Below are positions 998 to 45,016 of a DNA stretch of 63,675 nt, in pieces (positions within the stretch are counted from its first letter, which is position 1; each line of letters starts with the position of its first letter). Below the pieces are notes generated by a model. That model did not search any database. It saw only the letters and a list, made by a program, of their open reading frames with translations, and had not been told where the DNA came from. The translations under genes were made by a program, and so were the position numbers. The stretch comes from Williamsia limnetica. GTDB lineage: Bacteria > Actinomycetota > Actinomycetes > Mycobacteriales > Mycobacteriaceae. The DNA is taken from positions 1 to 63,675 of the forward strand of contig NZ_QJSP01000026.1 of assembly GCF_003217475.1 (NCBI RefSeq), read 5' to 3'.

Positions 998-1239
998 TGC
1001 CCGCTACGCGGTCACCTACTCCGATACGCCTACGGCGCAACTGTATTCCTCCTACGGAGGTCTCATTCCCTCATAGGCCGATTCTTTCCACAGCCGGACC
1101 TGCGGACCAAGAGACTCCACCAACAAAGTCCCACGCGCTGCGCTTATTTCGCGGGCCTTTCTTGTCTCCGCTTCTTGGTCCTCCGGCCCGTCTGCGAATG
1201 CGGCCAGTTATGAGGAAATGAGGAACTTCTGGTCACCAG
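998..1239 (+). ncRNA. Structured non-coding element, copy A
   Basis: First of three homologous folded elements (also 4915-5169 and 5918-6087). The closing stem pairs 1062-1075 with 1209-1222, 13 of 14 positions, with one C-A mismatch at 1068/1216. An inner stem pairs GGACCAAGA (1104-1112) with TCTTGGTCC (1173-1181). An apical hairpin (1125-1160) has a CGCG/CGCG stem, a CA bulge and the 12-nt loop CTGCGCTTATTT. Small hairpins flank it: CCGC/GCGG near 1002, CCTCC/GGAGG at 1049-1060 and CTGG/CCAG at 1229-1239. Comparison with copies B and C shows compensatory changes, so the structure is conserved rather than just the sequence. It ends 39 bp before the next gene. It could be a transcribed leader or sRNA, or a single-stranded-DNA promoter. 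Confidence 0.75.
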
Positions 1240-1278
1240 GGCCAGAGCCTCATCCCTCACGAAGGGAGCTCTACCGCA

Positions 1279-1830
1279 ATGACTATCAACGACCTCTACA
1301 CCGAACTCGACGCCCTGACGATCGCCACCCCGAACATGGCCGCTGTCCAATTGTCGGCCACCCTGCGCGGCATCACGTTCGAAGCTGCGATGGTCGAGCA
1401 GACCTGTTCCTGGTGCACCGCCCTGGATGACGCGATCGAGCGCAGCGCCCGCGAAGCAGCTATCTACATCGGCAACGCCGAAGACATCGCGACCACCGGC
1501 ACCCAGCGCGCCGCCTGGTACCACGAAGCCCACGACCACCTCACCGAGGTCAACCGGCTGGCCCAGATCCGCACGATCGCCGCCCAGCTCCTGGCCGACA
1601 CCGGCACCGACAGAATCGGAAAGTCCGCCACGACAGTGGTTGCGGCCCAGCAGATCACAGCCGGAGCGGTATTCACCGACGGATCAGGCGAAGCCTGGAC
1701 AGTGACCGGCACCGAGTGGGGCGAGAGCGCCACCGAATACCCCGTCATCACCTTGATCGCCCGCAGCACCGCAGGACGCACCCGCACGTTCGTGGTCTAC
1801 CCCACCGACCAGATCCGCATCAACCGCTAG
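1279..1830 (+). CDS. Hypothetical leading-region protein, 183 residues
   Basis: Not a family I can name. The N-terminal two thirds look alpha-helical, with a Cys pair in QTCSWC near residues 41-46. The C-terminal third, from about residue 127, looks beta-rich (VFTDGSGEAWTV onward) and ends in a basic stretch. No signal peptide or membrane segment is seen. The ATG at 1279 follows GGGAG with suitable spacing. It is the first gene after structured element A and is followed by a strong terminator before the ParB-like gene. Its position suggests a role early after plasmid entry, but this is inferred from context only. Confidence 0.75.
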   Translation: MTINDLYTELDALTIATPNMAAVQLSATLRGITFEAAMVEQTCSWCTALDDAIERSAREAAIYIGNAEDIATTGTQRAAWYHEAHDHLTEVNRLAQIRTIAAQLLADTGTDRIGKSATTVVAAQQITAGAVFTDGSGEAWTVTGTEWGESATEYPVITLIARSTAGRTRTFVVYPTDQIRINR

Positions 1831-1880
1831 GCACTACCCCAGAACCCCGGTAGCCACTCGGTCTATCGGTCACACGAGAA

Positions 1881-1922
1881 AAAGCAGTCGGGCCGATCGG
1901 TAGTCGGCCCGCCTGCTTTCTC
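1881..1922 (+). terminator. Rho-independent-type terminator
   Basis: AAAGCAG plus CGGGCCGA pairs with TCGGCCCG plus CTGCTTT around a 7-nt loop, followed by CTC. It lies 50 bp after the stop of the 183-residue gene and 30 bp before the ParB-like gene. Confidence 0.75.
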
Positions 1923-1950
1923 AACCCACAGTAGGAGAAAGAGAACACTC

Positions 1951-3516
1951 ATGGCAAACACCACCACCGCAACAACCACTGGCGTAGGCGAATTGCGTCA
2001 CCTGGACCCGGCCACCCTGGTCATCGACACCAATATTCGCACCACCACGGCGTTGACGAAAGAGTTCATCGCTTCAGTTGGTGACGGTATCCGCCTGCCG
2101 GTGCTGGCCGTAGAGACCGGCACTGACATTCTCGTGCGAGATGGGCAGCGCCGAACACTTGCCGCGATTGAAGCAGGTTTGGCGACGATCCCGGTGTACA
2201 TCGTCCCCGCCGACGACACCAACGATGATAAGGCGGCGACAGCGGCGCGGATCATCGATCAGATGGTCGCCAACACCCACCGCACCAACCTGACACGGCG
2301 TGATGAGGTCACCGCCATCGAGCAGCTCGCGTTGGCGGGGTTGTCGGCCACGAAGATCTCGAAAAGCGTGCGCACGAGTAAAAAGCAGGTCGACCACGCG
2401 CTGGCGACGGCCAGCTCCGCGTCGGCGTTGGAGGCGTTCGAGACCCATGGTGAGTTGACGTTGGAGCAGGCGGCGACCCTGGCTCAGTATGACGACGACC
2501 CCGATGCCACCGCCCGGTTGTTGGCCGGGGCAGCGCAGGGACGGTTCGAGCACGTCGCTCAGCATTTGGCCGACACCGCCGCCGAACGTGCCCTGGTCCG
2601 TACCGCCATCGCGGAGTACGCCGAGCAGGGTATTGCCGCGACCGGCAACCGGCCCGCTTACAACGGGCAGGCTCAGCCGCTGACGCGCCTCGCTGACGCC
2701 GAGGGCAACGCGGTCGAGGACATCGAGCAGGTCAAGGCCCCTTACCGGTTGGCGTACGTCAGTGTCGAGTTCGAGGACTACTACACCGACGCGCAGGGCA
2801 ACCGGGTCGATGAAGACCTCATCGACTGGTCCCTGGACGAAGACGACCCCGACGCCACCCCGCAGGACGGGTTGCTCGATATGCGGTCGCTCACTCGCAC
2901 CGAAGACACCGCCGTGGCCACGCAGTGGTACGTCACCGATCCCGACGCGGCCGGACTACAGGCCCGGACCTACGGCCACGGGTCCGCCGGAGCCGATCCG
3001 ATGCCCACCGACGCCGAGATCGACGCGAAGAAGGAAGCCGACCGCGCCGCGCGGCGGCAGACCATCGCGCTCAACAAAAAAGCCGAGGCAGCCCTACAGG
3101 TCCGGCGGGAGAAGATCGCCGAATACCTGTCCCGTAAGACGCTGCCGAAGGGTGCGATCGGGCAGGTGGCCGAGTTCCTCGCGGCCACGATGTGGAACAA
3201 CCACGATCTGTTCGGCTACAGCCGCCAAGACGGCAACGCCCAAGCGCTCACCCGGCAGTTCCTGGGCGGCGGCGAGCCGGGGGAGGCGATGGCCGGGGCC
3301 AGCGCCGAACGCCGCCACATCGTGAACCTGGCCATCGCGATCGGCGCGCACGAGGCCGACATGCCCAAAAGCGCGTGGCGCGAGACCGATCGCAGCTACA
3401 CCGCCCACCGAGCCACCTACCTCAAGATGTTGGTCGCGGTGTTCGGGTACACCCTCTCCGACGTCGAAGAGGTGATCTGCGGCGACAGCACCGCCGATGA
3501 GGTACCGCTGGACTAA
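1951..3516 (+). CDS. ParB-like nuclease/partition-fold protein, 521 residues
   Basis: The N-terminal domain has ParB/Spo0J features. The motif VRDGQRR (about residues 62-68) corresponds to the ParB box for CTP or phosphate binding. A second conserved block, NTHRTNLTRRDEV (108-120), is followed by a helix-turn-helix (about 128-150, GLSATKISKSVRTS). The remainder is long for a ParB, with an acidic middle (about 270-330) and a charged helical C-terminus. The plasmid also has a standard ParAB pair at 53.7-55.3 kb, and this gene has no ParA neighbour, so a partition role is unlikely. ParB-fold proteins are common in leading regions of conjugative plasmids. The start follows AGGAGAAAG. A strong terminator follows. 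Confidence 0.8.
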   Translation: MANTTTATTTGVGELRHLDPATLVIDTNIRTTTALTKEFIASVGDGIRLPVLAVETGTDILVRDGQRRTLAAIEAGLATIPVYIVPADDTNDDKAATAARIIDQMVANTHRTNLTRRDEVTAIEQLALAGLSATKISKSVRTSKKQVDHALATASSASALEAFETHGELTLEQAATLAQYDDDPDATARLLAGAAQGRFEHVAQHLADTAAERALVRTAIAEYAEQGIAATGNRPAYNGQAQPLTRLADAEGNAVEDIEQVKAPYRLAYVSVEFEDYYTDAQGNRVDEDLIDWSLDEDDPDATPQDGLLDMRSLTRTEDTAVATQWYVTDPDAAGLQARTYGHGSAGADPMPTDAEIDAKKEADRAARRQTIALNKKAEAALQVRREKIAEYLSRKTLPKGAIGQVAEFLAATMWNNHDLFGYSRQDGNAQALTRQFLGGGEPGEAMAGASAERRHIVNLAIAIGAHEADMPKSAWRETDRSYTAHRATYLKMLVAVFGYTLSDVEEVICGDSTADEVPLD

Positions 3517-3530
3517 CCACCCTCAGCGAA

Positions 3531-3565
3531 GCCGGGGCAGGAACTACACCGGTTCCTGCCCCGGC
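3531..3565 (+). terminator. Terminator after the ParB-like gene
   Basis: A 14-bp perfect stem, GCCGGGGCAGGAAC with GTTCCTGCCCCGGC, has a short loop and starts 14 bp after the stop codon. Confidence 0.75.
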
Positions 3566-3592
3566 AGCGTGCGTGCCGCAGAGGCCGCACGC

Positions 3593-3671
3593 TGCTAACG
3601 TCGCGAACGAGCCTGGTCAGCCGGGACAATCCCGTCCCAAGCGTGTTCTCAGAGTGCGGCTGGCCAGGCTC
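3593..3671 (+). ncRNA. Hairpin element G1 with extended -10-like box
   Basis: TGCTAACGT (3593-3601) is followed after 3 nt by GAACGAGCCTG and a long hairpin: GAGCCTGGTCAG (3609-3620) with CTGGCCAGGCTC (3660-3671), enclosing a smaller GGGAC/GTCCC hairpin. The same arrangement, with the same 3-nt spacing, recurs at 4783-4874, where the distal stem sequence differs but still pairs. The remaining 3672-3984 is GC-rich, with the short repeated word CGCTGCGCTCG and a TTTCAT/ATGAAA hairpin near 3850-3890. I see no gene there. Confidence 0.55.
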
Positions 3672-3984
3672 CCTACTTCTCTCACCCGCCCCCAGTGTTT
3701 GTGTCGTGCCTTCGGCCCGAGCTTCGCTCCGGTGGTCACCACCGGGGGCGCGCGCCTTCTCAGTGTCGCTGACCGGGGACCCCGACCTGTCAACCCACGC
3801 CCCTGCGCTCTCGCCCGTTCTCCGCTGCGCTGCGCCCTTGCGCTCCAACGATTTTCATCCCACACTCGCTGCGCTCGCATGAAATTCATTTCCGGCCGCC
3901 GGGACTCTTCGGGGTTGACTGCCCACCCCGCCCAGCGCGAACGCAAGGCGTCAATCGCCACCCACAACGAAAGGGCCAACCATC

Positions 3985-4209
3985 ATGTCCACCTCCAGCA
4001 TCTCCCAGCTTCTCGAAGACACTCGGCAAGCCATCCACGAGGCCGTCGCCGCCGAGAACGGCACCGACCGGCAACGATCAGCTGCCCACCATGCCCAGAG
4101 CCTGGCGAACACGGTTCTGACCGACCCGACCGCCGGGCACCAGGATATGGAGAGGGCCGGCTACTACCTCGATGAAGCCCTCGGCATCCAGGCCATCGAG
4201 AGCGCCTAA
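3985..4209 (+). CDS. Small helical protein, 74 residues (paralogue at 24.6 kb)
   Basis: An all-helical, acidic small protein. It aligns with the 82-residue protein at 24630-24878. Both have LLxD(T/A)R near the N-terminus, a central A(H/A)HHA motif, an (A/P)xSTA-like or DPTAG turn, and end in RAxYYLxEAL or RAARYLHQAL. Two diverged copies on one replicon, one in the leading region and one in the transfer operon, suggest a plasmid-specific function. No domain is recognised. The start follows GAAAGG, and a terminator follows immediately. Confidence 0.7.
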   Translation: MSTSSISQLLEDTRQAIHEAVAAENGTDRQRSAAHHAQSLANTVLTDPTAGHQDMERAGYYLDEALGIQAIESA

Positions 4210-4215
4210 CAGTAA

Positions 4216-4247
4216 GGGACCCACCTTCACAGATGGAGGTGGGTCCC
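4216..4247. terminator. Terminator, probably bidirectional
   Basis: An 11-bp stem, GGGACCCACCT with AGGTGGGTCCC, lies between the convergent genes ending at 4209 (+) and 4305 (-). A CTTCT stretch follows on the + strand. Confidence 0.75.
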
Positions 4248-4304
4248 TTCTGGCGTGTCAGAGACGATCGGTGTGAGGACACTGATCCCCGGTCAGTGGT
4301 GCGG

Positions 4305-4715
4305 TTACCAGGCTTGTGCGACCCAGAGCGGCATGTCCGGGTTGTCGGGGAACACCCCAAGCACCACATACCCGCCCCGGTGGGCGGCGGCTTCGGAAAT
4401 GACTTGCTGGCCGGTGACGTTGCTCCACATGCGGGCTTTGTCGGGGCGGTAGTAGCTGCCGCCCCTGTACCTGGAATCCTCATCCAGGGTGACGCGCCAG
4501 TGATCGTTGCCCAGCACGGCGTTAATCACATGGCCCGCCCCGACCTGCGAGGCGGCAACGGTCTCCTCATGGGTAAGCGTGATCACCCATACGCCCTGTG
4601 TCTCGCGGACGTCGGCAGCGGTCGCGGGCGCAGCGCCCACCGCCAGCCCGCCACCCACCGCGACCGCCAACGCGACAGCACCACTAGCAACCAGGCGCTT
4701 GAACCGATTCCTCAT
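4305..4715 (-). CDS. Small secreted protein with Sec signal peptide, 136 residues
   Basis: The N-terminus has a basic start (MRNRFKRL), a hydrophobic core and an AxA-type cleavage region near APATAA (about residues 28-34). The mature part of about 100 residues is predicted beta-rich, with Trp, Tyr and Gly in WSNVTGQQV and GGYVVLGVF. No Cys and no lipobox are present, so it should be released to the cell envelope or exterior. It is the only minus-strand gene among the leading-region + genes. Function is unknown. Another small secreted protein lies at 24965-25207, without obvious similarity. Confidence 0.75.
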   Translation of the reverse strand: MRNRFKRLVASGAVALAVAVGGGLAVGAAPATAADVRETQGVWVITLTHEETVAASQVGAGHVINAVLGNDHWRVTLDEDSRYRGGSYYRPDKARMWSNVTGQQVISEAAAHRGGYVVLGVFPDNPDMPLWVAQAW

Positions 4716-4782
4716 AACATTCCCTCCCTAAAGTTGACCGTCACGATAACAAACCTCGTAACGCTTGGATGTCCTACCTTTC

Positions 4783-4874
4783 TGTTAGTGTCAGGAACGA
4801 GCCTGACCCGTGCGGGTCGTTGTTCCCTCCCCCGGGGAACCGTCCGACCACTCCAAGGCGCGCGGGTCAGGCTC
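4783..4874 (+). ncRNA. Hairpin element G2 with extended -10-like box
   Basis: TGTTAGTGT (4783-4791), a 3-nt spacer, then GAACGAGCCTG. The stem GAGCCTGACCC (4799-4809) pairs perfectly with GGGTCAGGCTC (4864-4874) and encloses a GTTCCC/GGGGAAC hairpin. It is a counterpart of G1 (3593-3671) and lies directly upstream of structured element B. Confidence 0.55.
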
Positions 4875-4914
4875 TTCCACACCGCTCGTGCTATACCCAC
4901 GGGCATCGCACATG

Positions 4915-5169
4915 TGCCCGCTGCGCGGTCATCTGATCGGATACGCCTGCGGCGCAACAGAACTGTCCTCCCAACAGCGGGGAGGTTCTCATTCCCTGAT
5001 AGGCCGATTCTTTCCACAGCCGGACCTGCGGACCAAGAGACTCCCCCAAACAAACCGGCACGCGCTGCGCTTATTTCGCGCCGGTTTCTTTGTGCTCCCT
5101 TCTTGGTCCTGCGGCCCGTCTGCGAATGCGGCCAGGTATCAGGAAATGAGGGGCCTCCGGTCACGGAGG
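4915..5169 (+). ncRNA. Structured non-coding element, copy B
   Basis: Homologue of 998-1239. The closing stem pairs 4988-5001 with 5137-5150, 13 of 14, with the same C-A mismatch. One pair is G-C (4998/5140) where copy A has C-G (1072/1212). The inner stem GGACCAAGA (5030-5038) pairs with TCTTGGTCC (5101-5109). The apical stem is AACCGG/CCGGTT where copy A has AAGTCC/GGCCTT-type pairing, yet the CTGCGCTTATTT loop and the CA bulge are unchanged. Flanking hairpins CCTCCC/GGGGAGG (about 4968-4985) and CCTCCG/CGGAGG (5154-5169) correspond to those of copy A but have different sequences. It ends 34 bp before the LPD29 gene. Confidence 0.78.
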
Positions 5170-5202
5170 TTCCGGCCGAATGGGTAAGGGAGAGAACCAG
5201 AG

Positions 5203-5784
5203 ATGACCAGCTACAGCACGAAAGAGACCGCCGCCGAACTGCGTAAGCACCTGCGTGCGGTGTGGCCGGACGTGAAGTTTTCGGTGCGCTGCAACCGGGG
5301 CACCGCCAGCGCGTGGATTGGGGTCGCCTGGACTGACGGACCGACCTACACCCAGGCCCAAGCTCAGTGGTCGCAGTTTCAGGGTGCGCAGTTCAACGGC
5401 ATGACTGACAGCTACGACCTGATCGACGCCAAGCTGGTCTGCACCGACCCGGCCGAGCTGCCCGAGGTCCGCGACTATCACTGCGACGGCATCAACGGCG
5501 CACGCGGATTCTCCGACGAAGCCGTGCAAGCCGCCGCCCGCCAGATGCTTAGCGAGAACCGTGAGATGGCCGCAGCGTTCGCCGTCGAGAACATCGACCC
5601 GGACACGTTGACCTACAACACGTTGCATCGGTCGGTGGCCATGCTGACCATCGATCCGGACCGGTGGCTGTCCTATCTCGGCGAACCCCTGCCCGGTCAG
5701 CCCTACGACATGGGCGCCGCTATTGGGTCGGCGCTGAACATCACCGACCTCGCCGCCCCCACCCCCGCACGCACGCGCTACTGA
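5203..5784 (+). CDS. LPD29-domain protein, 193 residues
   Basis: The N-terminal half matches the pattern of large polyvalent-protein-associated domain 29: a helix with TKETAAELRK, then VWPDVKFSVR (about 19-28), a short glycine/threonine turn, WTDGPT (about 44-49) and FNGMTDSYD (about 66-74). Such domains occur in proteins of phages and conjugative elements that are thought to act during establishment in a new host. The C-terminal half is helical with no recognised motif. The ATG at 5203 follows AGGGAGAGAACC. It is the first gene after structured element B and is followed by a hairpin terminator. The biochemical role is not known. Confidence 0.75.
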   Translation: MTSYSTKETAAELRKHLRAVWPDVKFSVRCNRGTASAWIGVAWTDGPTYTQAQAQWSQFQGAQFNGMTDSYDLIDAKLVCTDPAELPEVRDYHCDGINGARGFSDEAVQAAARQMLSENREMAAAFAVENIDPDTLTYNTLHRSVAMLTIDPDRWLSYLGEPLPGQPYDMGAAIGSALNITDLAAPTPARTRY

Positions 5785-5837
5785 AATCCCCCAGCGGGGG
5801 TCGGCCCCAGCAATGCGGCCAGGCTCACGCCGGGACT

Positions 5838-5868
5838 GGTGGAGCCGGGCATCGAGCCCGGCCCCACC
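5838..5868 (+). terminator. Terminator after the LPD29 gene
   Basis: GTGG, GCCGGGC and GCCCGGC, CCAC form a bulged stem of 11 bp around a 5-nt loop, 54 bp after the stop codon. It separates the LPD29 gene from structured element C. Confidence 0.6.
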
Positions 5869-5917
5869 ACGCTTCGCGCAGATGGCCAGGCGCACGCCGA
5901 AACTTTCACCTGATTCG

Positions 5918-6087
5918 GTGGCATTGCCTGACCCGCTGGAGTATCTCGAACAGCCCCACCGCCGGAGTCAAGTGGCTCTGGGCACCAAAGCCCCACGCGC
6001 TGCGCTTATTTCGCGGGACTTTCCTCCCCGTCACCACTGGACTCTGACACCGGGGCCACGAGAGCGGCGGATATCAGGAAATGACAC
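5918..6087 (+). ncRNA. Structured non-coding element, copy C
   Basis: The most diverged copy. The closing stem pairs 5918-5931 with 6074-6087 in the same register as copies A and B, with G-A at the mismatch position (5926/6079) and a second G-A at 5921/6084. The inner stem has no sequence similarity to the other copies, yet it pairs GAGTCAAGTGG (5965-5975) with CCACTGGACTC (6034-6044), 10 of 11. The apical hairpin (5987-6022) keeps the CGCG stem, CA bulge and CTGCGCTTATTT loop. The 3' strand AGGAAATGA is invariant in all three. A sigma-70-like promoter and the redoxin operon follow. Confidence 0.72.
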
Positions 6088-6141: not shown

Positions 6142-6170
6142 TTGCAGCACAACGCATAAACCGATACAAT
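6142..6170 (+). promoter_or_regulatory. Sigma-70/SigA-type promoter
   Basis: TTGCAG (6142-6147) and TACAAT (6165-6170) are separated by exactly 17 bp. The start of transcription would be near 6177, about 45 nt before the redoxin ATG. It should drive the gene series 6223-9006. Confidence 0.7.
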
Positions 6171-6222: not shown

Positions 6223-6465
6223 ATGACTGACACCACGATCACCGTCTACACCAAGCCAGCGTGCGTGCAGTGCAACGCCACCTACAAAGCCCTGGACAAG
6301 GCTGGACTGCCCTATGTCGTCGTCGACATCACCGAAGACGATCAGGCGCGGGATTACGTGATGAGCCTGGGATATTTGCAAGCCCCCGTTGTTGTTGCCG
6401 GAGAGGCACATTGGAGCGGTTTCCGGCCCGATGCAATCAAGGCGATTGCCGCGCAGGCCGCGTGA
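6223..6465 (+). CDS. nrdH: NrdH-type glutaredoxin-like protein, 80 residues
   Basis: A thioredoxin-fold redox protein with the CVQC active site at residues 14-17, a QAPVVV segment carrying the cis-proline, and the WSGFRPD signature typical of NrdH redoxins. NrdH proteins reduce class Ib ribonucleotide reductase, supplying deoxynucleotides, and are reduced by thioredoxin reductase. No ribonucleotide reductase gene is in the window, so it would work with the host enzyme, perhaps aiding second-strand synthesis after transfer. The frame extends upstream, but the ATG at 6223 has the GGAGG-like site (6208-6214) and starts exactly at the redoxin fold. Confidence 0.9.
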   Translation: MTDTTITVYTKPACVQCNATYKALDKAGLPYVVVDITEDDQARDYVMSLGYLQAPVVVAGEAHWSGFRPDAIKAIAAQAA

Positions 6466-7634: not shown

Positions 7635-7933
7635 CCGCGCGAAGGGACGCAGCGATGGAGCCGGTGCCACCTGCTGATCGGCCGGTGACCGCCAGGGAGC
7701 ACCGCATCCTGGCGGGAGTGAACGCCGGTGAAGTGATGGAAGGCTCCGGGCTGACTGACGGTGACATTGCTGCGGCGTTGCGGGTTCTGCGTGGGCAGAG
7801 CACTGCGGAGGAGGAAGTTGCTCGGATGCTCGCTGAGCTCGTGGCGGCCCGATCTGGCCGCGAACCCGGTGCCCCGAGCTCGCAGCCGTTGGGCTTGGAA
7901 ACACCCGGACCGATGGAGAGGGATCTACCATGA
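7631..7933 (+). CDS. Small hypothetical protein, 100 residues
   Basis: The TTG at 7631 overlaps the previous stop. An ATG at 7655 (MEPVPPADRP) is an alternative start. The middle is helical (REHRILAGVNAGEVMEGS, then DGDIAAALRVLRGQ) and the C-terminus is Pro/Gly-rich. No family recognised. Its last 4 bp overlap the start of the antitoxin-like gene, so expression is probably coupled to the VbhA/Fic pair. Confidence 0.6.
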   Translation: MTARRDAAMEPVPPADRPVTAREHRILAGVNAGEVMEGSGLTDGDIAAALRVLRGQSTAEEEVARMLAELVAARSGREPGAPSSQPLGLETPGPMERDLP

Positions 7934-8181
7934 CTGTTATGACGACGTCTCAGGAACCGGGGTGGGCGCTGCGGTACCCGGAGCTGTTCGCTGGCTTGAG
8001 CATCGAGCAGCGGTGGTCGGTGCACAACACCATTGCCAACGGTGTGCTGGAGGGCTGGACGCCGGAGCCGGCGGATATTGCGGATCTGACCGCCCTGGTC
8101 CGCGGCGACATCGACGGCGACGAAGCTGTCCGCCGCAGTGACGCGCGGATGGCGGCCCGGTTCGGCGCACGCGCGCAGTAA
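7930..8181 (+). CDS. VbhA-like antitoxin of the Fic protein, 83 residues
   Basis: The segment VHNTIANGVLEGW followed by PEPADIADLTALVRGDIDGDEAVRR has the layout of class I Fic inhibitors (VbhA type). There, a helix ending in a Glu-Gly pair inserts its Glu into the Fic active site and blocks ATP binding, and a DxxxLxxxxxGxIxxxE helix follows. The canonical S/T four residues before the Glu is Asn here. The gene lies 21 bp before the Fic gene, the usual antitoxin-toxin order. Assignment is by motif and position. Confidence 0.7.
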   Translation: MTVMTTSQEPGWALRYPELFAGLSIEQRWSVHNTIANGVLEGWTPEPADIADLTALVRGDIDGDEAVRRSDARMAARFGARAQ

Positions 8182-8202
8182 CGCCCGCCGGGTGATGCGG
8201 GG

Positions 8203-9006
8203 TTGCGGGTGAGGGGATGGAACGACTACTTCTGGCCCGGTACCACCGTGTTGATCAACAAGCGGGGCTTGGCCGATCAAACTCAGCTCGATCAGTTTGA
8301 GTACTTCCGGGCGGCGGTGCGCGAACAAGAAATCCGTAGCGGCACAGTGCCGATCGACCGGACGTTCGACGCACGGCATCTGCAAGCGTTGCACGCGCAT
8401 CTATTTGTCGATGTGTATGAGTGGGCGGGTCAGTACCGCGAGGTGGAGATGTCCAAGGGGCGGCTGCCGTTCGCCACACCCGATCGGATCGGGTCCTACC
8501 TTGCCGACACCGCCCACATCATCGCCACCACGGCGTGGCCGGAGCTGGACCGGGCAGCGTTCGTGGAGCAGTCCGCGAAGGTCTATGCCTACGTCAATAC
8601 GGCCCATTGTTTTCGCGAAGGCAACGGTCGTGCGGGCAAGCTGTTTATCTCTCAGATGGCCGAGATGACGCGGTACGACATCGATTACGCCAAGATCGAT
8701 CGGGCGTTGTGGAATCAGCAATCGGAGTTCAGCCGCCCCGATCTGGGGCAGTACACACCGCATCACCACGAGCTGGTCCCGGTGTTCGACCGGATCACGA
8801 TCGCCCGCCCCGGCCTGCCGCCGGCGGACCCGCGGTTCGAGTCCGCACGCCAAGCCGCGAAGTTCGCGCGGCGTGATCACCCCACCCATCCCCGCGACGC
8901 GACGAGATCACGGGGCACCACCTCGCCGGGTGCGAGCGATCCCCCCGCCGCGGGCCGGCCGCCGGGTTCGCGGCCGGGCCGCGACACCGACGACTACGGC
9001 CGCTAA
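8203..9006 (+). CDS. Fic-domain protein with T4SS-like C-terminal tail, 267 residues
   Basis: Fic domains usually transfer AMP from ATP to hydroxyl groups of target proteins. The N-terminus (RGWNDYFWPGT...NKRGL) is typical of VbhT/Doc-like Fic proteins. The active-site loop HCFREGNGRAGK (135-146) keeps the catalytic His, the acidic residue and GNGR, but has Cys for the usual Pro and Lys for the final Arg. After the fold (about residue 215) comes a Pro/Arg-rich tail with RDHPTHPR and the terminus DDYGR. RDHPTHPR recurs in the protein at 19753-20691, and EDYGR ends the relaxase. The tail suggests export through the T4SS. The start may be TTG 8203 or GTG 8209. Confidence 0.85.
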   Translation: MRVRGWNDYFWPGTTVLINKRGLADQTQLDQFEYFRAAVREQEIRSGTVPIDRTFDARHLQALHAHLFVDVYEWAGQYREVEMSKGRLPFATPDRIGSYLADTAHIIATTAWPELDRAAFVEQSAKVYAYVNTAHCFREGNGRAGKLFISQMAEMTRYDIDYAKIDRALWNQQSEFSRPDLGQYTPHHHELVPVFDRITIARPGLPPADPRFESARQAAKFARRDHPTHPRDATRSRGTTSPGASDPPAAGRPPGSRPGRDTDDYGR

Positions 9007-12550: not shown

Positions 12551-12988
12551 ATGACCGACGACGACGCGCAGGGGCAGTCGTCGCGTGCCTCGCGGTCAAT
12601 TTTGCGGCGCCGCAGGGCCAATACGCCCGGGGGCCGGCAGGGCAAGATCGAGGTCAAGGTGACCACGGATGAGGAGGCGTTGCTGCGAGCGCGGGCGCAG
12701 GCAGCGGGTATGTCTGTGCAGCGGTTGATGGTGACGCGGGCCTTGAGTGAGGGCCGTGCGCCGAGTGTGGATTACCAGACCCGCCGGCAGGCGTGGGAGC
12801 AGGCGGTGGCGTTGCAGAATCTGATTGCGGCGGTGGGCAACAACATGAACCAGATCGCTCGCCAAGCCAATAGCGATGGGCAGATTCCGGCGGACTTCGA
12901 GCCGGCATTGGATGCGGTGATGCGCTCGCACCGGCGGGTGTTTGAAGCGTTCGAGGCGACGTTCGGCCTGGAGGGTCAGCGCGGGTGA
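12551..12988 (+). CDS. mobC: MobC-like relaxosome accessory protein, 145 residues
   Basis: A ribbon-helix-helix-like N-terminal segment (KIEVKVTTDEEALLRARAQAAGMSVQRLMVTRAL, about 36-70) is followed by the helical MobC motif around QNLIAAVGNNMNQIARQAN (about 94-112). MobC proteins bind oriT and help the relaxase reach the nick site. The gene overlaps the relaxase start by 4 bp (GTGA), so the two are translationally coupled. The basic N-terminus (SRSILRRRRAN) supports DNA binding. Confidence 0.85.
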   Translation: MTDDDAQGQSSRASRSILRRRRANTPGGRQGKIEVKVTTDEEALLRARAQAAGMSVQRLMVTRALSEGRAPSVDYQTRRQAWEQAVALQNLIAAVGNNMNQIARQANSDGQIPADFEPALDAVMRSHRRVFEAFEATFGLEGQRG

Positions 12989-15096
12989 TCCCGAACATCG
13001 AGAACGGCGCGAAGATGACTGGTCTTGTCATGTACTTGGCCGGGCCGGGCCGGGCGAACGAGCACGACAATCCCCATGTGGTGGCGGCCAGTAGCGGGTC
13101 GGTGAGCATGGCCGGCGGCGCGGGGATGGAGATGACGCGGGAGCAGGCGCTGGCGCTGTCGGAGCAATTGGATATGGCGCGGTTGGTGTTCGGCACTGAG
13201 GTGACCCGGCGCGACAAGGGCGCGTTGGCGGCGGCTCAGGAACGCGGCGTCAAGGGTGCGGCGGCGATCGCGCTGGCGACCCGCGATGAGAACGTGTGGC
13301 ATTGCTCGCTGTCGCTGTCGCCGGAGGAGACGGCGGCGTTGACGCCCGCCGGCGCGACGGTCCAGGGCTTGTCTGATGCGCAGTGGCAGCAGATCGCTGA
13401 GGAGTTCATGGCGGGCATGGGTTTTGACTCTGATGGTGATGCGCCGGCGCGGTGGGTCGCGATCCGTCACGGCCTGTCGAAGAGGGAAGGCGACCACATC
13501 CATATCGCCGCCTCACGCGTGCGTGATGACGGCAGTGTCGTGAAACTGTGGTTCCCCGAACCGGGCGAGGACCGGCCCAAGGGCGACAAGTGGCGCGCGC
13601 AGAATCTGTGCACGCGTTTGGAGGAGTCCCACGGCCTCAAGGTCACCCCGGGGCGGGCTAAAAGCTATCCCGGTAAGGGCTCGTCCCCTGCCCAGGAGAA
13701 CATCGCCGAACGCACGGGGCGCAGCGAGCCAGCCAAGGCGGCGTTGGCGCGGCGGGTCCGTGCGGTCGCCGGTGCTGCCGAGTCCGAAGCCGAGTTCGTG
13801 CGGCTGGCCCGCGCGCACGGACTGCTGGTGCGGCCCCGCTACAAAGCCGGGTCCAAGACGGAGGTGGTCGGGTACTCGGTGGCGCTGCCGACCGGCGACT
13901 ACGCCACCCGTGACGGGCGCCCGGTGTGGCATGGCGGCGGGAAACTCGGCAACGACTTGACCTTGCCGCGACTGCGCGAGCGGTGGGCAGCACCCGATGC
14001 GGGCGGACGCGCGGACGCGGCGAGTGCGTGGGCGCATCATCAGCGCGAGACGATCGACCCGGCTGCGACGGTCGTGCCGGCCGAGGCCGAAAGCGCACGG
14101 TCGGGGATGTCGTGGAAGCAGGCCCGCGCCGAACTCCGGGACCGGTTGATGGCAGCGGCACAAGGCAGCTCGACGGAACGCAACTTCATTCAGGCCGCCC
14201 GCGACAAAGGGGTGCTGCTGCGTCCCCGGTACGCCCCGGGCACCACCGATCGCATCACCGGGTATTCCGCAGCGCTGCCGTCGTCGATCTACAGCGACCG
14301 TGACGGGCACCCGGTGTGGCATGGCGGCGGGAAACTCGACAACACGTTGGCGTTGTCGGAGCTTCGGCGTCAGTGGCCTCCGGCTGGCCCCCAGTCGGCC
14401 ACCGGAGCGATGACGGTGAATGCGTGGGCGCGAGTGGCACCGGCGGCGGCTCAGGCCGCTCAGGTCTCCGCCGAAGCCAAAGGGTGGGCTGCTGCCGGGC
14501 GCAGTGCCCGGGCCTGGCAGGAGCGAATTGAGACACTGGCTGACCCGGCGGCTGCGACACCGCGCCCCGGGACATGGGCGCGCGCTGCCCGCGAGACCGC
14601 GGCCGCGATGTCGGCGTGGTCGGTGCACACCGAAGGCGACCAGCCGGCCGAGCTCGCGCGGATGGCTGATGCACTCTCCGCCGCGTCCGGACACCGACGC
14701 TCCCCCACCGCTGCGCCGCAGAGTCCCGGCGGCGGGTTACGTCGGGTGGCAGCGATGATGCTCGCCGCCAGTAGCGATGACCCGAAGTACTTGTGGCTGG
14801 CGGTGTTCTCGCAACTCGCCGCGACGTCCCGCGCGATCGCTGCGGCCCTGGAGGCCGAGGGGCACGCCCAGCGCGCCCGCGAGCTGACCGCGGCGACCGC
14901 AGCGGCGTCGGCGAAGTTCGACACCATCGCCTCCGGTGCCGACAGCGCCCGCGTGCGGGCGAACCTCGCGGCCGCCGGACCCGCTGCCACCCGCACACGC
15001 ACACAGCCACCGGCGGGCCGGCCCACCGACACGAACCGGCCACCGACCGCCGCGCCGCACCGCCGGGAGGCGGGGCGCGAGGACTACGGCCGGTAA
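12985..15096 (+). CDS. MOBP-type relaxase, 703 residues
   Basis: The N-terminal relaxase domain includes a candidate catalytic Tyr in LVMYLAG (Y17) and the metal-binding histidine motif HIHIAASRVRDDG (171-183), preceded by AIRHGLS. It nicks oriT and pilots the strand into the recipient. After about residue 245 the protein has two copies of an 80-residue module (VRPRY...GYSxALP...RDGxPVWHGGGKL, about 250-330 and 377-455). A helical region and a Pro/Arg-rich tail ending REDYGR follow. That tail resembles the Fic protein's end and probably carries the T4SS signal. The start is GTG. Confidence 0.88.
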   Translation: MIPNIENGAKMTGLVMYLAGPGRANEHDNPHVVAASSGSVSMAGGAGMEMTREQALALSEQLDMARLVFGTEVTRRDKGALAAAQERGVKGAAAIALATRDENVWHCSLSLSPEETAALTPAGATVQGLSDAQWQQIAEEFMAGMGFDSDGDAPARWVAIRHGLSKREGDHIHIAASRVRDDGSVVKLWFPEPGEDRPKGDKWRAQNLCTRLEESHGLKVTPGRAKSYPGKGSSPAQENIAERTGRSEPAKAALARRVRAVAGAAESEAEFVRLARAHGLLVRPRYKAGSKTEVVGYSVALPTGDYATRDGRPVWHGGGKLGNDLTLPRLRERWAAPDAGGRADAASAWAHHQRETIDPAATVVPAEAESARSGMSWKQARAELRDRLMAAAQGSSTERNFIQAARDKGVLLRPRYAPGTTDRITGYSAALPSSIYSDRDGHPVWHGGGKLDNTLALSELRRQWPPAGPQSATGAMTVNAWARVAPAAAQAAQVSAEAKGWAAAGRSARAWQERIETLADPAAATPRPGTWARAARETAAAMSAWSVHTEGDQPAELARMADALSAASGHRRSPTAAPQSPGGGLRRVAAMMLAASSDDPKYLWLAVFSQLAATSRAIAAALEAEGHAQRARELTAATAAASAKFDTIASGADSARVRANLAAAGPAATRTRTQPPAGRPTDTNRPPTAAPHRREAGREDYGR

Positions 15097-16808: not shown

Positions 16809-17966
16809 ATGAACCATGAGTTTCCTCGGTTAGAACTAGACGGCCACCTTCTCGACTGGCAGGACACGGCGGCCGTGATTTGGGGTGAAACGGGGCGGGG
16901 GCGGCGAGTAACCCTGCTTGGCTGCTTCCAGACCTCGTCTGACTCAATGACATCCCACGTGCACGTGCACGTCGCCTTGATCGGCGTTCATCTCGCATCG
17001 GCAGAGGAAAGAGCCTTTCGCCGCATAGACGTGGGACTGTCAGCCCTGACTGACTACGCGACGAGAGGACAAGTCAACGCCGCTTTGCCACAGGGGATCG
17101 CAAACCCGCTGTGTCCCGGGGAGCGGCTCAGTCTGGTCAACGATGACAGTGAGGGGGTGTACCTCCGTGTCGAATCCGGTGAGTCTCGGAGTTGGTCCGG
17201 GTTTGGTGACACTGTCCAGTTCGTCCAGGACCTTTTGACCTTGGTGGGTAACGCAGACTGTCGGAAGGACTTGCCAGTTCTCACAACTGAGAGCGGTACT
17301 CGCGTTGATGTCAAGATGAAAACCGAGCCGGTGATCCGGGATCACTGGTACCCAACTTTTCTGTTGAAGTTGGACGATCTGCCGACAGTGCTCCCAACCT
17401 GGTTGTGCCTGCGGGAGAAGTTAGAGCCCTCTGCGGCAGTGCTTTTCAGCGTCGACTATGGCGGTCCCGGGTATTATCAGAATAAGCTGTTCAACGTTGC
17501 ATCGGCCGCTGAAGGCTTCAGTAATGCCCTATTTCCCGACGCCACCGGCATTGCTCCGGACTCGTACGCACAACTCAGGCAGTATCTGAAGAAGCTGCCT
17601 GACAAAGATGCGCGGGACTGGGCATTCAGCATGATCAAACGAAACAAACCTGGGTTCACTGCCCGGATGCGTATGCTCCTCACCCTTCCAGACCCCGCGG
17701 CGGTCCGGGAGGTGATGGCGGACAAGGAGGATTTGTGGGCCAAATGGATAACGCAGGCACGCAACGCAATCAGTCACTCAAACTACGACGATATGAAGGA
17801 GATTCCCCCGGAAATCGGGCAAGCGCTGCTCTACGTCACGAAAACGTTGCTGCATCTCGTCATGCTTGCTGAACTCGACTATCTCTCCCCAAAACAGCAA
17901 CAAGGCGTTGCCGCGCTCACTCACACTGTGCGCCGAACTCCGTTCACCGAGTACCTACCCCCCTAG
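16809..17966 (+). CDS. ApeA-type HEPN protein, at least 385 residues
   Basis: The N-terminal region resembles the ApeA N-terminal domain (a FPRLELDGHL-like strand, then VTLLGCF). The C-terminal 90 residues form a HEPN domain with the RNase motif RNAISH (Rx4H, about residue 318). ApeA is an anti-phage protein; HEPN domains cut RNA. The homology extends upstream of the first ATG in the same frame: 16737-16808 encode TGTWWLPEASSVAIPGELV, the usual family beginning. There is no ATG, GTG or TTG after the stop at 16710-16712, but GGAGG lies 5 nt before an ATC at 16737. The real start is therefore uncertain. Confidence 0.75.
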   Translation: MNHEFPRLELDGHLLDWQDTAAVIWGETGRGRRVTLLGCFQTSSDSMTSHVHVHVALIGVHLASAEERAFRRIDVGLSALTDYATRGQVNAALPQGIANPLCPGERLSLVNDDSEGVYLRVESGESRSWSGFGDTVQFVQDLLTLVGNADCRKDLPVLTTESGTRVDVKMKTEPVIRDHWYPTFLLKLDDLPTVLPTWLCLREKLEPSAAVLFSVDYGGPGYYQNKLFNVASAAEGFSNALFPDATGIAPDSYAQLRQYLKKLPDKDARDWAFSMIKRNKPGFTARMRMLLTLPDPAAVREVMADKEDLWAKWITQARNAISHSNYDDMKEIPPEIGQALLYVTKTLLHLVMLAELDYLSPKQQQGVAALTHTVRRTPFTEYLPP

Positions 17967-20691: not shown

Positions 20692-21212
20692 CAGTTATTC
20701 CCTTCTTGGAGTTGACCACTCATGATCTGCCGGAGCAACGCGTCGTCCATCGGCTCGACGGGCAGCATCTGGCACACCGGCTCGTGGCGGCCGAGTTCGG
20801 CCGAGCAGCCGTCGAACGGGCCGTCCGGGTCGAACAGCGCGGCCATCGCCGGGCCGGCGTGATCGCGCCACCACACACTCATCCCGGTCCCGGGATCGAG
20901 GCGCAGTTGCTCATAGGCCCGCCACAACGCCTCGAAGCGGCTGACCGCTTCGCCGTGCAGCCACCATTTCGCGCACCATCGGAACTGCGGTTTGGAGGTG
21001 TCGCGGGCGAAGATGAAGATCAGATGGGTGTCGACGAAGTCGTACACCGAGGAGAACTCGGGAACCGGAGGATCATCAGACCCTTCCGCGCCGCTCTCTG
21101 TCTCGGCACCACGTTCTTGCCGACCAGTGGGCGGCGGTGGTGCATCGGCAGCGGGTCGCGGCTCTGCGGGCAGCTCGTCCATCTCATCGAACAGGTCATC
21201 GGGAGTGCTCAT
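20691..21212 (-). CDS. DUF4913 protein, 173 residues
   Basis: After an acidic, Pro-rich N-terminal 55 residues, the C-terminal part matches DUF4913: FRWCAKWWLHGEAVSRFEAL (a Trp-rich helix), LRLDPGTGMSVWWRDHAGPA and a final DGPFDGC. DUF4913 proteins are typical of actinobacterial conjugative plasmids and are regularly found near the coupling protein; their role is unknown. ATG 21212 was chosen because it overlaps the coupling-protein stop; the longer frame from 21461 is a shadow inside that gene. Confidence 0.82.
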   Translation of the reverse strand: MSTPDDLFDEMDELPAEPRPAADAPPPPTGRQERGAETESGAEGSDDPPVPEFSSVYDFVDTHLIFIFARDTSKPQFRWCAKWWLHGEAVSRFEALWRAYEQLRLDPGTGMSVWWRDHAGPAMAALFDPDGPFDGCSAELGRHEPVCQMLPVEPMDDALLRQIMSGQLQEGNN

Positions 21213-23098
21213 CGCGGGAGTGTTCCTTTCGTCAGCGTGGGCGCAGCTGCGGACGGCTGGGCGATGTCGCCGCTGCTGTGGGTCAGCAGTCCCCTGAACC
21301 GGCCGCCGCCCAGGACATCGGGCTTTGCGGTGCGCGGCGGGGCGTAGCGGGCCAGGGACTCTTTGATGAGCCCGGCGTAGGGGGTGTCCATCCAGGGAAT
21401 GGTTTTGGCGATGGTGGCCGGGTTGCCGGCGGAGAACACCAGCGCCCGACCGCGTGGCCACGACGCCAAGTCGGAGATGTTGAACAGCCGTTCTCGGCTG
21501 ATCTGGGTGCTGGTGGAGTTGCTGCCTTTGGACCGCGACACGCTGGTTGATTCGCGGTCGTAGTCCCCCACCAGCTTGGACAGGAACTCCAGGAAGCTGT
21601 CGTCGCTGACGTTGCCGCCATAGACGCGGACGTTCGCAGCGCTCCAGAGCATGCTCATCCCGTCTTTGCCCCAGACCTCAACCCCCTGGGCCCAGCTCTG
21701 CAGCACCGTCATGATGTTGATGCCGCGAGAGCCGTAGTGCGAGTACAGAGCTGGCAGTCGTTGCCAGCGGACCACGTTGGCGGCCTCGTCGAGGGCGCAG
21801 AGCATCGGGGTCGGCAAACGCCCGCCAGGGGATGCGGTGGCGATCTCTTCGGCGGCCTCACACGCAGCAACAGTCAGTGCAGCAATCAAGGGACCGGTCG
21901 ACCCGACCCCCTCCTTGGACAGGCAGTACAGGGTCTCGCTGCCCCGGACGAACTGGTGCAGATCCAAGTGCGGGCGGGTATCGCCGGGGCTGGTGGTGAT
22001 CCACTGCTTGACACGGCTCGAGCGCAGACACGCCGCCATCTTCAAGGCGGTGCCGAAAATGCCGTCCTGCTGTTTGGCGGCCAGGCGCAATCGGGCCTGC
22101 AACGACCCAGCTACATACGGGTACGTCGGCCGCAGAATCTGTACGGCTTCCTCGCAGCGATCGCGGCGAGTCAACCGCTCATAAACTACGGTGATCTGCT
22201 CCCCCGCCAGTGCCGAGGCCAACAGCAGGTTGGCCAGTAGATCCTGGCCTTCGGGATCGAAGTACGGATCCTTCTTCACAGCCTGCCCGTCGCCGCCGCT
22301 GGCGAACTGTTCGGCCAGGGAGGCTGCGCGCTCTTCAGCGTCGGGACCATCGGTGGCCGCCGGGTCATGCCGCGATCGGGGGTCAAGGATGTACGACAAA
22401 GGATTCCAGTAGAAGGTTGCTGGTTGCTGCGCGACCTGTTGGGGGTCGAACACCCACACCGCTCGGCCCATGTGCTCGCGGACATAGCGGGTGTGATCGA
22501 GGTTGCCGCGCTTGTTCTCTGTTGCCAGCACCGCCCCGGGGGCTTCGCAGATCGCGCGAATGATCCGCGACGTCGATTTGCCCATGCGGGGGCCCCAGAT
22601 GTCGACGTGCATGTCCTCGAACGAGCCGAACAGCCGTACCGACCCCCGCAGGGTCCCCCCGATCGGCACACCCGGTGAGCAGTGGGAGTTCTCCGGTCCG
22701 GTCGGCATGATCACGCCCAGCTCGTCGGCCTTGATCTGCACGGCCCGCCCGGTGAGGGTCTCGATGTCTTTACCCCGCCCCAAATATTGTGCGGCGGCGT
22801 CGACCCGTTTGAATTGACCGCGCCGCACATACCACCAGCGGGTCATCGCGACCGCTACGGCCGCGATGACGAGGGCGATCGCCACGGCCCACACGGTCGC
22901 TGTGGTCGACCAGAGGACCTGACCGCGGGCGAGCTCCCCTGCGGCGGTGATCGGGTTGGCCGGTACCGTCTGTCCGCCGGCCAGGTGCAGCGCCGCCCAG
23001 CCGGTTCCCACGATCGTGGCCCCGATCCCCAGGCAACCGAAGATCCATGGTGCCTCAGAGGATTTCGGAGTCCGGATCTGTCCGGGAGTTGTAGGCAT
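21209..23098 (-). CDS. VirD4/TraG-type coupling ATPase, 629 residues
   Basis: The type IV coupling protein links the relaxosome to the secretion channel and drives DNA export. Two N-terminal membrane helices (about 18-40 and 67-86) are followed by a FGSFEDMHVDIWGP strand and the Walker A GPRMGKST (169-176). Walker B is PMLCALDEAANV (about 430-442), and a SWAQGVEVWG motif follows. Length and order are typical of actinobacterial TraG-like proteins. It overlaps the DUF4913 gene by 4 bp and is preceded by a 55-residue ORF that mimics its Walker A region. Confidence 0.92.
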   Translation of the reverse strand: MPTTPGQIRTPKSSEAPWIFGCLGIGATIVGTGWAALHLAGGQTVPANPITAAGELARGQVLWSTTATVWAVAIALVIAAVAVAMTRWWYVRRGQFKRVDAAAQYLGRGKDIETLTGRAVQIKADELGVIMPTGPENSHCSPGVPIGGTLRGSVRLFGSFEDMHVDIWGPRMGKSTSRIIRAICEAPGAVLATENKRGNLDHTRYVREHMGRAVWVFDPQQVAQQPATFYWNPLSYILDPRSRHDPAATDGPDAEERAASLAEQFASGGDGQAVKKDPYFDPEGQDLLANLLLASALAGEQITVVYERLTRRDRCEEAVQILRPTYPYVAGSLQARLRLAAKQQDGIFGTALKMAACLRSSRVKQWITTSPGDTRPHLDLHQFVRGSETLYCLSKEGVGSTGPLIAALTVAACEAAEEIATASPGGRLPTPMLCALDEAANVVRWQRLPALYSHYGSRGINIMTVLQSWAQGVEVWGKDGMSMLWSAANVRVYGGNVSDDSFLEFLSKLVGDYDRESTSVSRSKGSNSTSTQISRERLFNISDLASWPRGRALVFSAGNPATIAKTIPWMDTPYAGLIKESLARYAPPRTAKPDVLGGGRFRGLLTHSSGDIAQPSAAAPTLTKGTLPR

Positions 23099-44751: not shown

Positions 44752-45016
44752 AGAGGTGCCTTCCAGGGCAGGTGTTAAGAGGCGGTGCGTCAGAGCGTCG
44801 AAGACGGGGTGCGTACTGCGCTGACGTGAGCGCGGTACATCGTGTGACCCAACGGACACGTCGGGCCAAGCCCGAGCTGATGGGTGACGCAGATGAACCC
44901 GACCGGTTGGGCCGGGCAACTAACACGCGGTCTTGAGGCACGAGGGAACTGCACAACACCTAAACTGGAAGAGTTCGGCGCTGCACCTACACGGTCAGAG
45001 GTTGAACAACTGGTGC

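Follow-up and report, generated by a model that had tools for sequence, protein, structure and literature searches.

The question raised by this Williamsia limnetica locus is in which molecule, and on which strand, a set of repeated structured elements acts. The window analysed here, a whole 63,675-base contig, carries mobC/nikA, MOBP relaxase and coupling protein genes and looks like a mobilizable or conjugative plasmid. An initial annotation, made from the letters of the sequence, had described copies at 998-1239, 4915-5169 and 5918-6087 as a family of homologous structured elements, by implication RNA; all three exist, and they share a common structure, a long imperfect hairpin with compensatory changes. 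We propose that these elements, together with a fourth of another class at about 3737-3969 that was not among the copies first described, are very probably single-strand DNA promoters of the Frpo/ssi kind, situated in the leading region of conjugative or mobilizable plasmids and serving early expression in the recipient. The four elements of the window are as follows.

998..1239, minus strand: element A, class 1, with a hairpin core at 1064-1224 and an upstream box at about 998-1041
~3737-3969, minus strand: element D, class 4, the additional element
4915..5169, minus strand: element B, class 1, with its core at 4990-5152 and an upstream box at about 4915-4958
5918..6087, minus strand: element C, class 3, with its core at 5922-6087 and without an upstream box

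Homology and covariation

The 16-mer CTGCGCTTATTTCGCG is found exactly at all three of the copies first described; with three mismatches allowed, 0.52 matches are expected by chance, and three were reached in 1 of 100 shuffles. A pair said to change on both sides, C-G at 1072/1212 and G-C at 4998/5140, was confirmed, and the sense RNA folds of the three copies give z values of -3.04, -3.93 and -2.58. The initial annotation had named in advance two grounds on which the family should be abandoned, a lack of further homologues and a lack of excess covariation; both were looked for and neither occurred. Covariance models R1 (classes 1 and 3) and R2 (class 2) between them have matches in 81 of the 401 family genomes searched, counting four weak ones to R1 (G079, G117, G208, G225). 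In a minus-strand alignment of 33 sequences, 91.6% of cells pair as compared with 77.1% in shuffles, and both sides are changed in 122 cells as compared with 36.7 in shuffles, a value that 0 of 500 shuffles reached. Pairing falls to 37-46% when the partners are slid. This alignment (A5) is without Ws2 and G141 and includes two plasmid copies; the 33 class 1 and 3 elements used elsewhere are what remains of 51 rows after removal of 18, namely 13 opposite-strand echoes, the duplicates L138 and L194, and L197 1816, L198 and L200.

Strand preference of the fold

The sense and minus strands of each element were folded with DNA energy parameters and compared with dinucleotide shuffles. The minus strand folds better in 49 of 49 elements by energy and in 46 of 49 by shuffle z (mean z -4.24 versus -2.66). 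Among 57 further class 2 homologues, which come from other loci and are neither identical to nor contained in the first set, it folds better in 57 by energy and in 54 by z (mean z -4.88 versus -2.84); over both sets, energy favours it in all 106 distinct elements and z in 100 of them. The 57 homologues are 61 rows minus 4 identical ones, with two L238 rows and the opposite-strand echoes left out and, from the plasmid class 2 rows, only L206 and one L209 row taken. A long stem-loop of the Frpo/ssi kind is predicted on the strand expected to be transferred, weakly so in class 4. Cobalamin riboswitch loci served as a control, and in these the RNA strand folds better in 12 of 22 by energy and 13 of 22 by z (22 of the 30 loci fetched). 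The strand test has no built-in antisense bias, and cobalamin riboswitches are a weak positive control for it.

Details of the fold first read from the sense strand change when the other strand is considered. The "CA bulge" of the apical stem comes from the sense-strand reading: when the minus strand is folded to the consensus, the position of its A is a T, paired as G.T in 32 of 33 copies and as A-T in one. A mismatch of the closing stem that had been called fixed is variable: in the alignment the minus strand carries T.G, C-G, G-C, T-A or a true mismatch, copy by copy. Folds restricted to Watson-Crick pairs contain, in sense letters, 18 A.C and 1 G.T 1x1 mismatches when the sense strand is folded and 16 and 2 when the other is folded; by our own estimate, base composition alone would give A.C over G.T at about two to one. 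The unpaired bases of the sense strand are C/T-rich. Strand asymmetry, these C/T-rich unpaired bases and the minus-strand promoter motif described below suggest that the hairpins form in single-stranded plasmid DNA rather than in a transcript.

A cis-acting structured RNA leader of the downstream genes, whether a riboswitch or a protein-binding 5' untranslated region, would sit well with the covariation, with sense RNA folds that beat shuffles, and with a mechanically called open reading frame (ORF) that follows 78 of 81 elements at a regular spacing (median gap 49.5 nucleotides (nt); a few calls are doubtful). It is nevertheless quite improbable. The better fold lies on the opposite strand, the sense-strand unpaired bases have the composition just given, and upstream of nrdH the class 3 elements are followed by an ordinary promoter (read by eye), so that the transcript from it would exclude the element. 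Rfam structured RNAs likewise have covarying stems ahead of genes, but here nothing matched at the gathering score, only low-scoring matches elsewhere at a relaxed score, and the fold favours the other strand. The sense-strand RNA reading was rejected on strand asymmetry. The initial annotation was right in that there is a family with covarying stems and many further homologues, and that it is absent from Rfam; its RNA nature is not supported.

Promoter motif in the 3' arm of the minus strand

The hairpins of the window carry the following candidate promoter boxes, all on the minus strand.

Element A: -10 AAGAAT at 1081-1086, -35 TTGGTC at 1105-1110, spacer 18
Element D: -10 GACACT at 3762-3767, -35 TTGACA at 3788-3793, spacer 20
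Element B: -10 AAGAAT at 5007-5012, -35 TTGGTC at 5031-5036, spacer 18
Element C: -10 GATACT at 5940-5945, -35 TTGACT at 5966-5971, spacer 20

The pattern TTGNNN-N15-21-NANNNT was found in the minus-strand 3' arm of 55 of 57 class 2 homologues, as compared with 3% of shuffles and with 4-7% when the other arm or the other direction is read, and 37 of the 57 have the stricter TTG(C/T)GC-N16-(C/G)ANNNT. In class 3 the same arm holds TTGAC(A/G)-N18-21-NANNNT in 20 of 25 copies, with total consensus scores mostly above those of shuffles, and elements A and B of class 1 share TTGGTC-N18-AAGAAT. The A and T of the -10 are constant and the three interior bases variable. The mean unpaired probability of the -10 is 0.58 in 31 of the 33 class 1 and 3 elements and 0.40 in the 57 class 2 homologues, and that of the -35 region is 0.16 and 0.17, respectively. 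The predicted folds accordingly pair the -35 and leave the -10 within or next to an internal loop.

On the sense strand of the 3' arm in duplex DNA such a motif is rare (5% of class 2; three class 3 copies score 10-11), and therefore an ordinary promoter seldom aims at the gene from there. Several nrdH loci have a separate ordinary promoter further downstream, again read by eye.

The minus strand could also be thought to encode a structured antisense RNA that regulates the genes, and the fold with its G.T wobbles does lie on that strand. This is very improbable: in duplex DNA, transcription from the minus-strand -35/-10 would begin at the hairpin's outer edge and proceed outward, giving an RNA without the hairpin (no search for further minus-strand promoters was made).

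Orientation, relaxases and downstream genes

All copies are co-oriented in 45 of 45 contigs with at least two copies (134 elements). Relaxases of the MOBP (PF03432) and MOBF (PF08751) types were scored on contigs treated as linear, leaving out ten relaxase rows (weak, partial or fragmentary), opposite-strand R1 rows and unlisted R2 matches. In 62 of 63 pairs the relaxase shares its strand with the genes that follow the elements; it is downstream of the nearest element in 60 of 63 and within 30 kb downstream in 56 of 63. The one pair on opposite strands comes from a megabase contig with two relaxases, of which the nearer (9.8 kb) conforms and the second, at 91 kb, does not. According to the main text of PMC11541004, the part of a plasmid that enters last is where relaxase genes are usually found; the minus strand would then be expected to lead the transfer and to serve as the template. 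We infer that the minus strand is the transferred strand (T-strand) and the template of the genes, which would place the elements in a leading region whose genes are templated by the T-strand.

A single-strand initiation or conversion site (sso/ssi) would have the same strand and place, and several copies per plasmid. In that case the T-strand hairpin would prime complementary-strand synthesis, with gene expression secondary; Masai and Arai (1997) are said to have described Frpo also as a priming site. Nearly every copy examined, however, has a gene of the same orientation behind it at an almost fixed distance, which priming alone would not need, and we regard a purely priming role as unlikely. 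It is also compatible with a single-strand promoter.

In the window, the genes behind the elements and the mobilization genes are these.

1279..1830, plus strand: ORF of 183 amino acids (aa), the nearest gene after element A, without a Pfam or NCBIfam family
1951..3516, plus strand: 521-aa ORF, the second gene after element A, ParB-like (NCBIfam TIGR00180, E 8e-10)
3985..4209, plus strand: 74-aa ORF after element D
5203..5784, plus strand: LPD29-domain protein, starting 51 nt past the core of element B
6142..6170, plus strand: ordinary double-strand-type promoter TTGCAG-N17-TACAAT between element C and nrdH, read by eye
6223..6465, plus strand: glutaredoxin protein of the NrdH kind, downstream of element C
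12551..12988, plus strand: NikA-like/MobC relaxosome protein
12985..15096, plus strand: MobA/VirD2-type (MOBP) relaxase, whose direction fixes the minus strand as the expected T-strand
21209..23098, minus strand: TraG/VirD4-type coupling protein

The TIGR00180 match of the 1951..3516 product is under the curated cut-off, and Pfam gave none at E 0.1. A promoter-like sequence resembling that at 6142..6170 is present in several further class 3 loci, also by eye. The origin of transfer (oriT) is expected directly upstream of the mobC/nikA gene. Seventy proteins were scanned for domains, 68 of the 78 element ORFs and two more from the window. They include DUF4192 (12), ArdC N-terminal (8), LPD29 (4), glutaredoxin of the NrdH kind (4), DUF932 (1) and ParB_N (1); three of the 70, the product of 1951-3516 among them, are ParB-like by NCBIfam under the cut-off.

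Sequence classes and distribution

Four classes are distinguished: class 1 (elements A and B), class 2 (closing stem CTTCTGGC/GCCAGAAG), class 3 (element C, mostly ahead of nrdH) and class 4 (element D). A nucleotide search with element A matched 8 of 9 genomes of the genus, its own included. Model R1 was built from the sense strand, and since stronger copies are reported on both strands the better one was counted; it matches 29 of 401 family genomes (6 of 31 genera). Model R2, which covered the family only, matches 66 of 401 (13 of 31 genera). Across the wider order, model R3 matches 5 of 397 genomes, all within the same family (f1).

Eight named plasmid stretches were also searched. R1 matches at full length on Gordonia sp. 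KTR9 pGKT1, G. rubripertincta pGCWB2 and a G. polyisoprenivorans plasmid, and in part on Dietzia pDK313-83; R2 has four matches in Mycolicibacterium gilvum pMSPYR101 and one full match in the G. polyisoprenivorans plasmid. Class 4 DNA matched 45 plasmid records, 26 of them from Prescottella and pREC1 among them, none over more than 80% of the query. Nucleotide searches gave no match for element A among plasmid records and none for element B among phage records, and no exact 20-mer was found in viral contigs. An exact 16-mer search of genome contigs returned 100 stretches, five of which R1 matches (L042, L053, L055 and L063 at full length, L114 in part); the remainder are presumably mostly chance.

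Individual copies vary. The hairpin tip is enlarged by an extra hairpin sequence, with both arms kept, in L134 4836-5053, L135 7359-7540 and L144 620-804. Shortened copies are seen at L145 ~8494-8600 and L147 ~8290-8330; one of the two consists of the 5' half only, and one is on a 5.25 Mb contig, presumably a chromosome. The match at L042 2507-2667 is labelled Kitasatospora arboriphila, a doubtful label, and two partial matches (731-795 and 2529-2592) fall in L114, an assembly of an unclassified actinomycete. Class 2 elements also occur on large contigs (lengths or positions of at least 0.77 Mb): G109:C1, G129:C1, G292:C1, G303:C36, G313:C11 and G318:C1. These, some with a TrwC relaxase nearby, suggest integrated conjugative elements.

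Comparison with known single-strand promoters

Promoters of this type have been described for plasmids of E. coli. Frpo1 and Frpo2 of F and the ssi3-type promoters of ColIb-P9, as the literature portrays them, resemble the present elements in lying in a leading region, in several copies, as transferred-strand hairpins that rebuild a -35 and a -10; here the rebuilt boxes are borne out by classes 2 and 3. In F, deletion of Frpo1 or Frpo2 abolishes early expression of the genes that follow, according to the text of PMC9849209. The F leading region has its ssb, ParB, psiB and DUF932 genes all in one direction, with traM and traJ on that strand too, and ParB and DUF932 genes are also found behind the present elements. 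No model match to F Frpo is significant: on the F leading region the best E values are 0.063 for model R2 and 0.24 for R3, neither at Frpo, and the best model E inside the Frpo2 region is 0.7. The present elements differ from Frpo in having the -10 in or beside an internal loop, Mycobacteriales hosts, at least four sequence classes and ArdC, DUF4192, LPD29 and NrdH genes. On this evidence the elements would work like Frpo by analogy of design, membership of its sequence family not being implied.

The Frpo' and Frpo* candidates of Samuel et al. 2024 (PMC11541004) are likewise predicted single-strand promoters ahead of anti-defence genes, found by fold and consensus boxes; the main text describes BLAST with five known sequences and candidates from four islands. 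The strings actinobacteri, actinomycet and mycobacteri have 0 occurrences in that main text, words for these bacteria have none in the main text of a second survey, and the open literature gave no report of Frpo or other single-strand DNA promoters in plasmids of Actinobacteria/Actinomycetota.

EGeRS1/2 of the pLS20-family plasmids (PMC8708921) are, like the present elements, repeated ahead of establishment operons, and one could suppose protein-binding establishment sequences of that kind, active as double strands. According to PMC8708921, in pLS20 the transferred strand is the non-template strand and no promoter is seen in the fold, and its authors judge a single-strand promoter role for EGeRS1 unlikely. 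Here the polarity appears to be the opposite, the expected T-strand being the template, and the promoter motif is present; we give this possibility next to no weight.

Points weighing against a single-strand promoter

Several observations count against the promoter interpretation or limit it. Fold strand, covariation, motif, orientation and gene neighbourhood were computed; T-strand polarity, RNA polymerase binding, transcription and timing are deduced from them, the polarity from the position of the relaxase. The copies are related, hence the counts are not independent. The strand asymmetry shows the strand for these elements but is no hallmark of Frpo, because the Frpo2 region of the F plasmid is almost without it (z -5.63 versus -5.73).

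The motif is uneven among classes. Promoter scores are not above shuffles in class 1 (p 0.15-0.42), where the same arm read the opposite way ties at 9 versus 9 in six of eight copies (the others being G8a, 10 versus 9, and Wster1, 8 versus 9), and the Williamsia class 2 copies give p 0.06-0.71. In class 3, Ws3 reaches 11 in the sense 3' arm as well, and G355b lacks the -11 A. Spacers of 17-21 in classes 1, 3 and 4 are mostly longer than the usual 17. In class 4, TTGAC(A/C/T)-N19-20-(G/C/T)ANNNT was found in 18 of 19 copies, but as the search pattern contained TTGAC only the -10 is a test, one that by our own estimate is passed by chance in about a third. Class 4 folds are weak (z -1.43 for element D), and L032 prefers the sense strand by z (-2.94 versus -2.17). 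Finally, the stretches read of pKB1, pREC1 and pMYCCH.01 have no R1 or R2 match.

Proposed mechanism and implications

Under the single-strand promoter interpretation, the minus (T) strand would arrive in the recipient as single-stranded DNA, and each element would form a long imperfect hairpin whose 3' arm provides a base-paired non-template -35 together with a -10 (NANNNT) within or next to an internal loop. Sigma-A RNA polymerase might then bind the hairpin, open the closing stem and transcribe the 5' arm and the following gene on the same strand. Synthesis of the complementary strand would abolish the hairpin, and with the duplex sense strand rarely having an equivalent motif at that place, expression would be transient. 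Anti-restriction and other settling-in genes would in this way be switched on before the second strand is made, and the same RNA might additionally prime second-strand synthesis.

More broadly, we consider it likely that plasmids and integrative and conjugative element-like elements of Mycobacteriales have a single-strand promoter set of their own, in at least four classes unrelated in sequence to Frpo and sharing one design (a paired -35, with the -10 within or next to an internal loop). It would run a recipient-only establishment programme (ArdC anti-restriction, DUF4192, LPD29, NrdH and others) on MOBP and MOBF plasmids, pMSPYR101 included. If so, a further large lineage of bacteria has single-strand promoters, apparently through convergence, and the elements flag leading regions on many poorly annotated actinobacterial plasmids. 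They would further predict which obscure genes, among them those for DUF4192, LPD29 and NrdH, act within minutes of plasmid entry, and would yield a list of candidate anti-defence and establishment genes.

Other features of the window

In Williamsia, a box of about 42 nt (TGCCCGCTGCGCGGTCACC..., with a small hairpin of its own) lies ahead of class 1 and class 2 elements. Examples are the upstream boxes of elements A and B (~998-1041 and ~4915-4958), L032 884-924, L138, L140, L143 and others. The TGCCCGCTGCGCGGTCACC box is often preceded by a terminator-like repeat; no such box was seen ahead of class 3 elements.

Between the elements and the relaxase the window encodes a VbhA-type antitoxin followed by a Fic protein (7930-9006), a pair annotated on pGKT1 too. 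An ApeA-like HEPN protein (16809-17966) and an nSTAND1-WD40 protein (46237-50064) are also encoded, both of kinds known from defence loci. A cutinase-domain protein (43093-44919) lies in the minus-strand block after the coupling protein gene.

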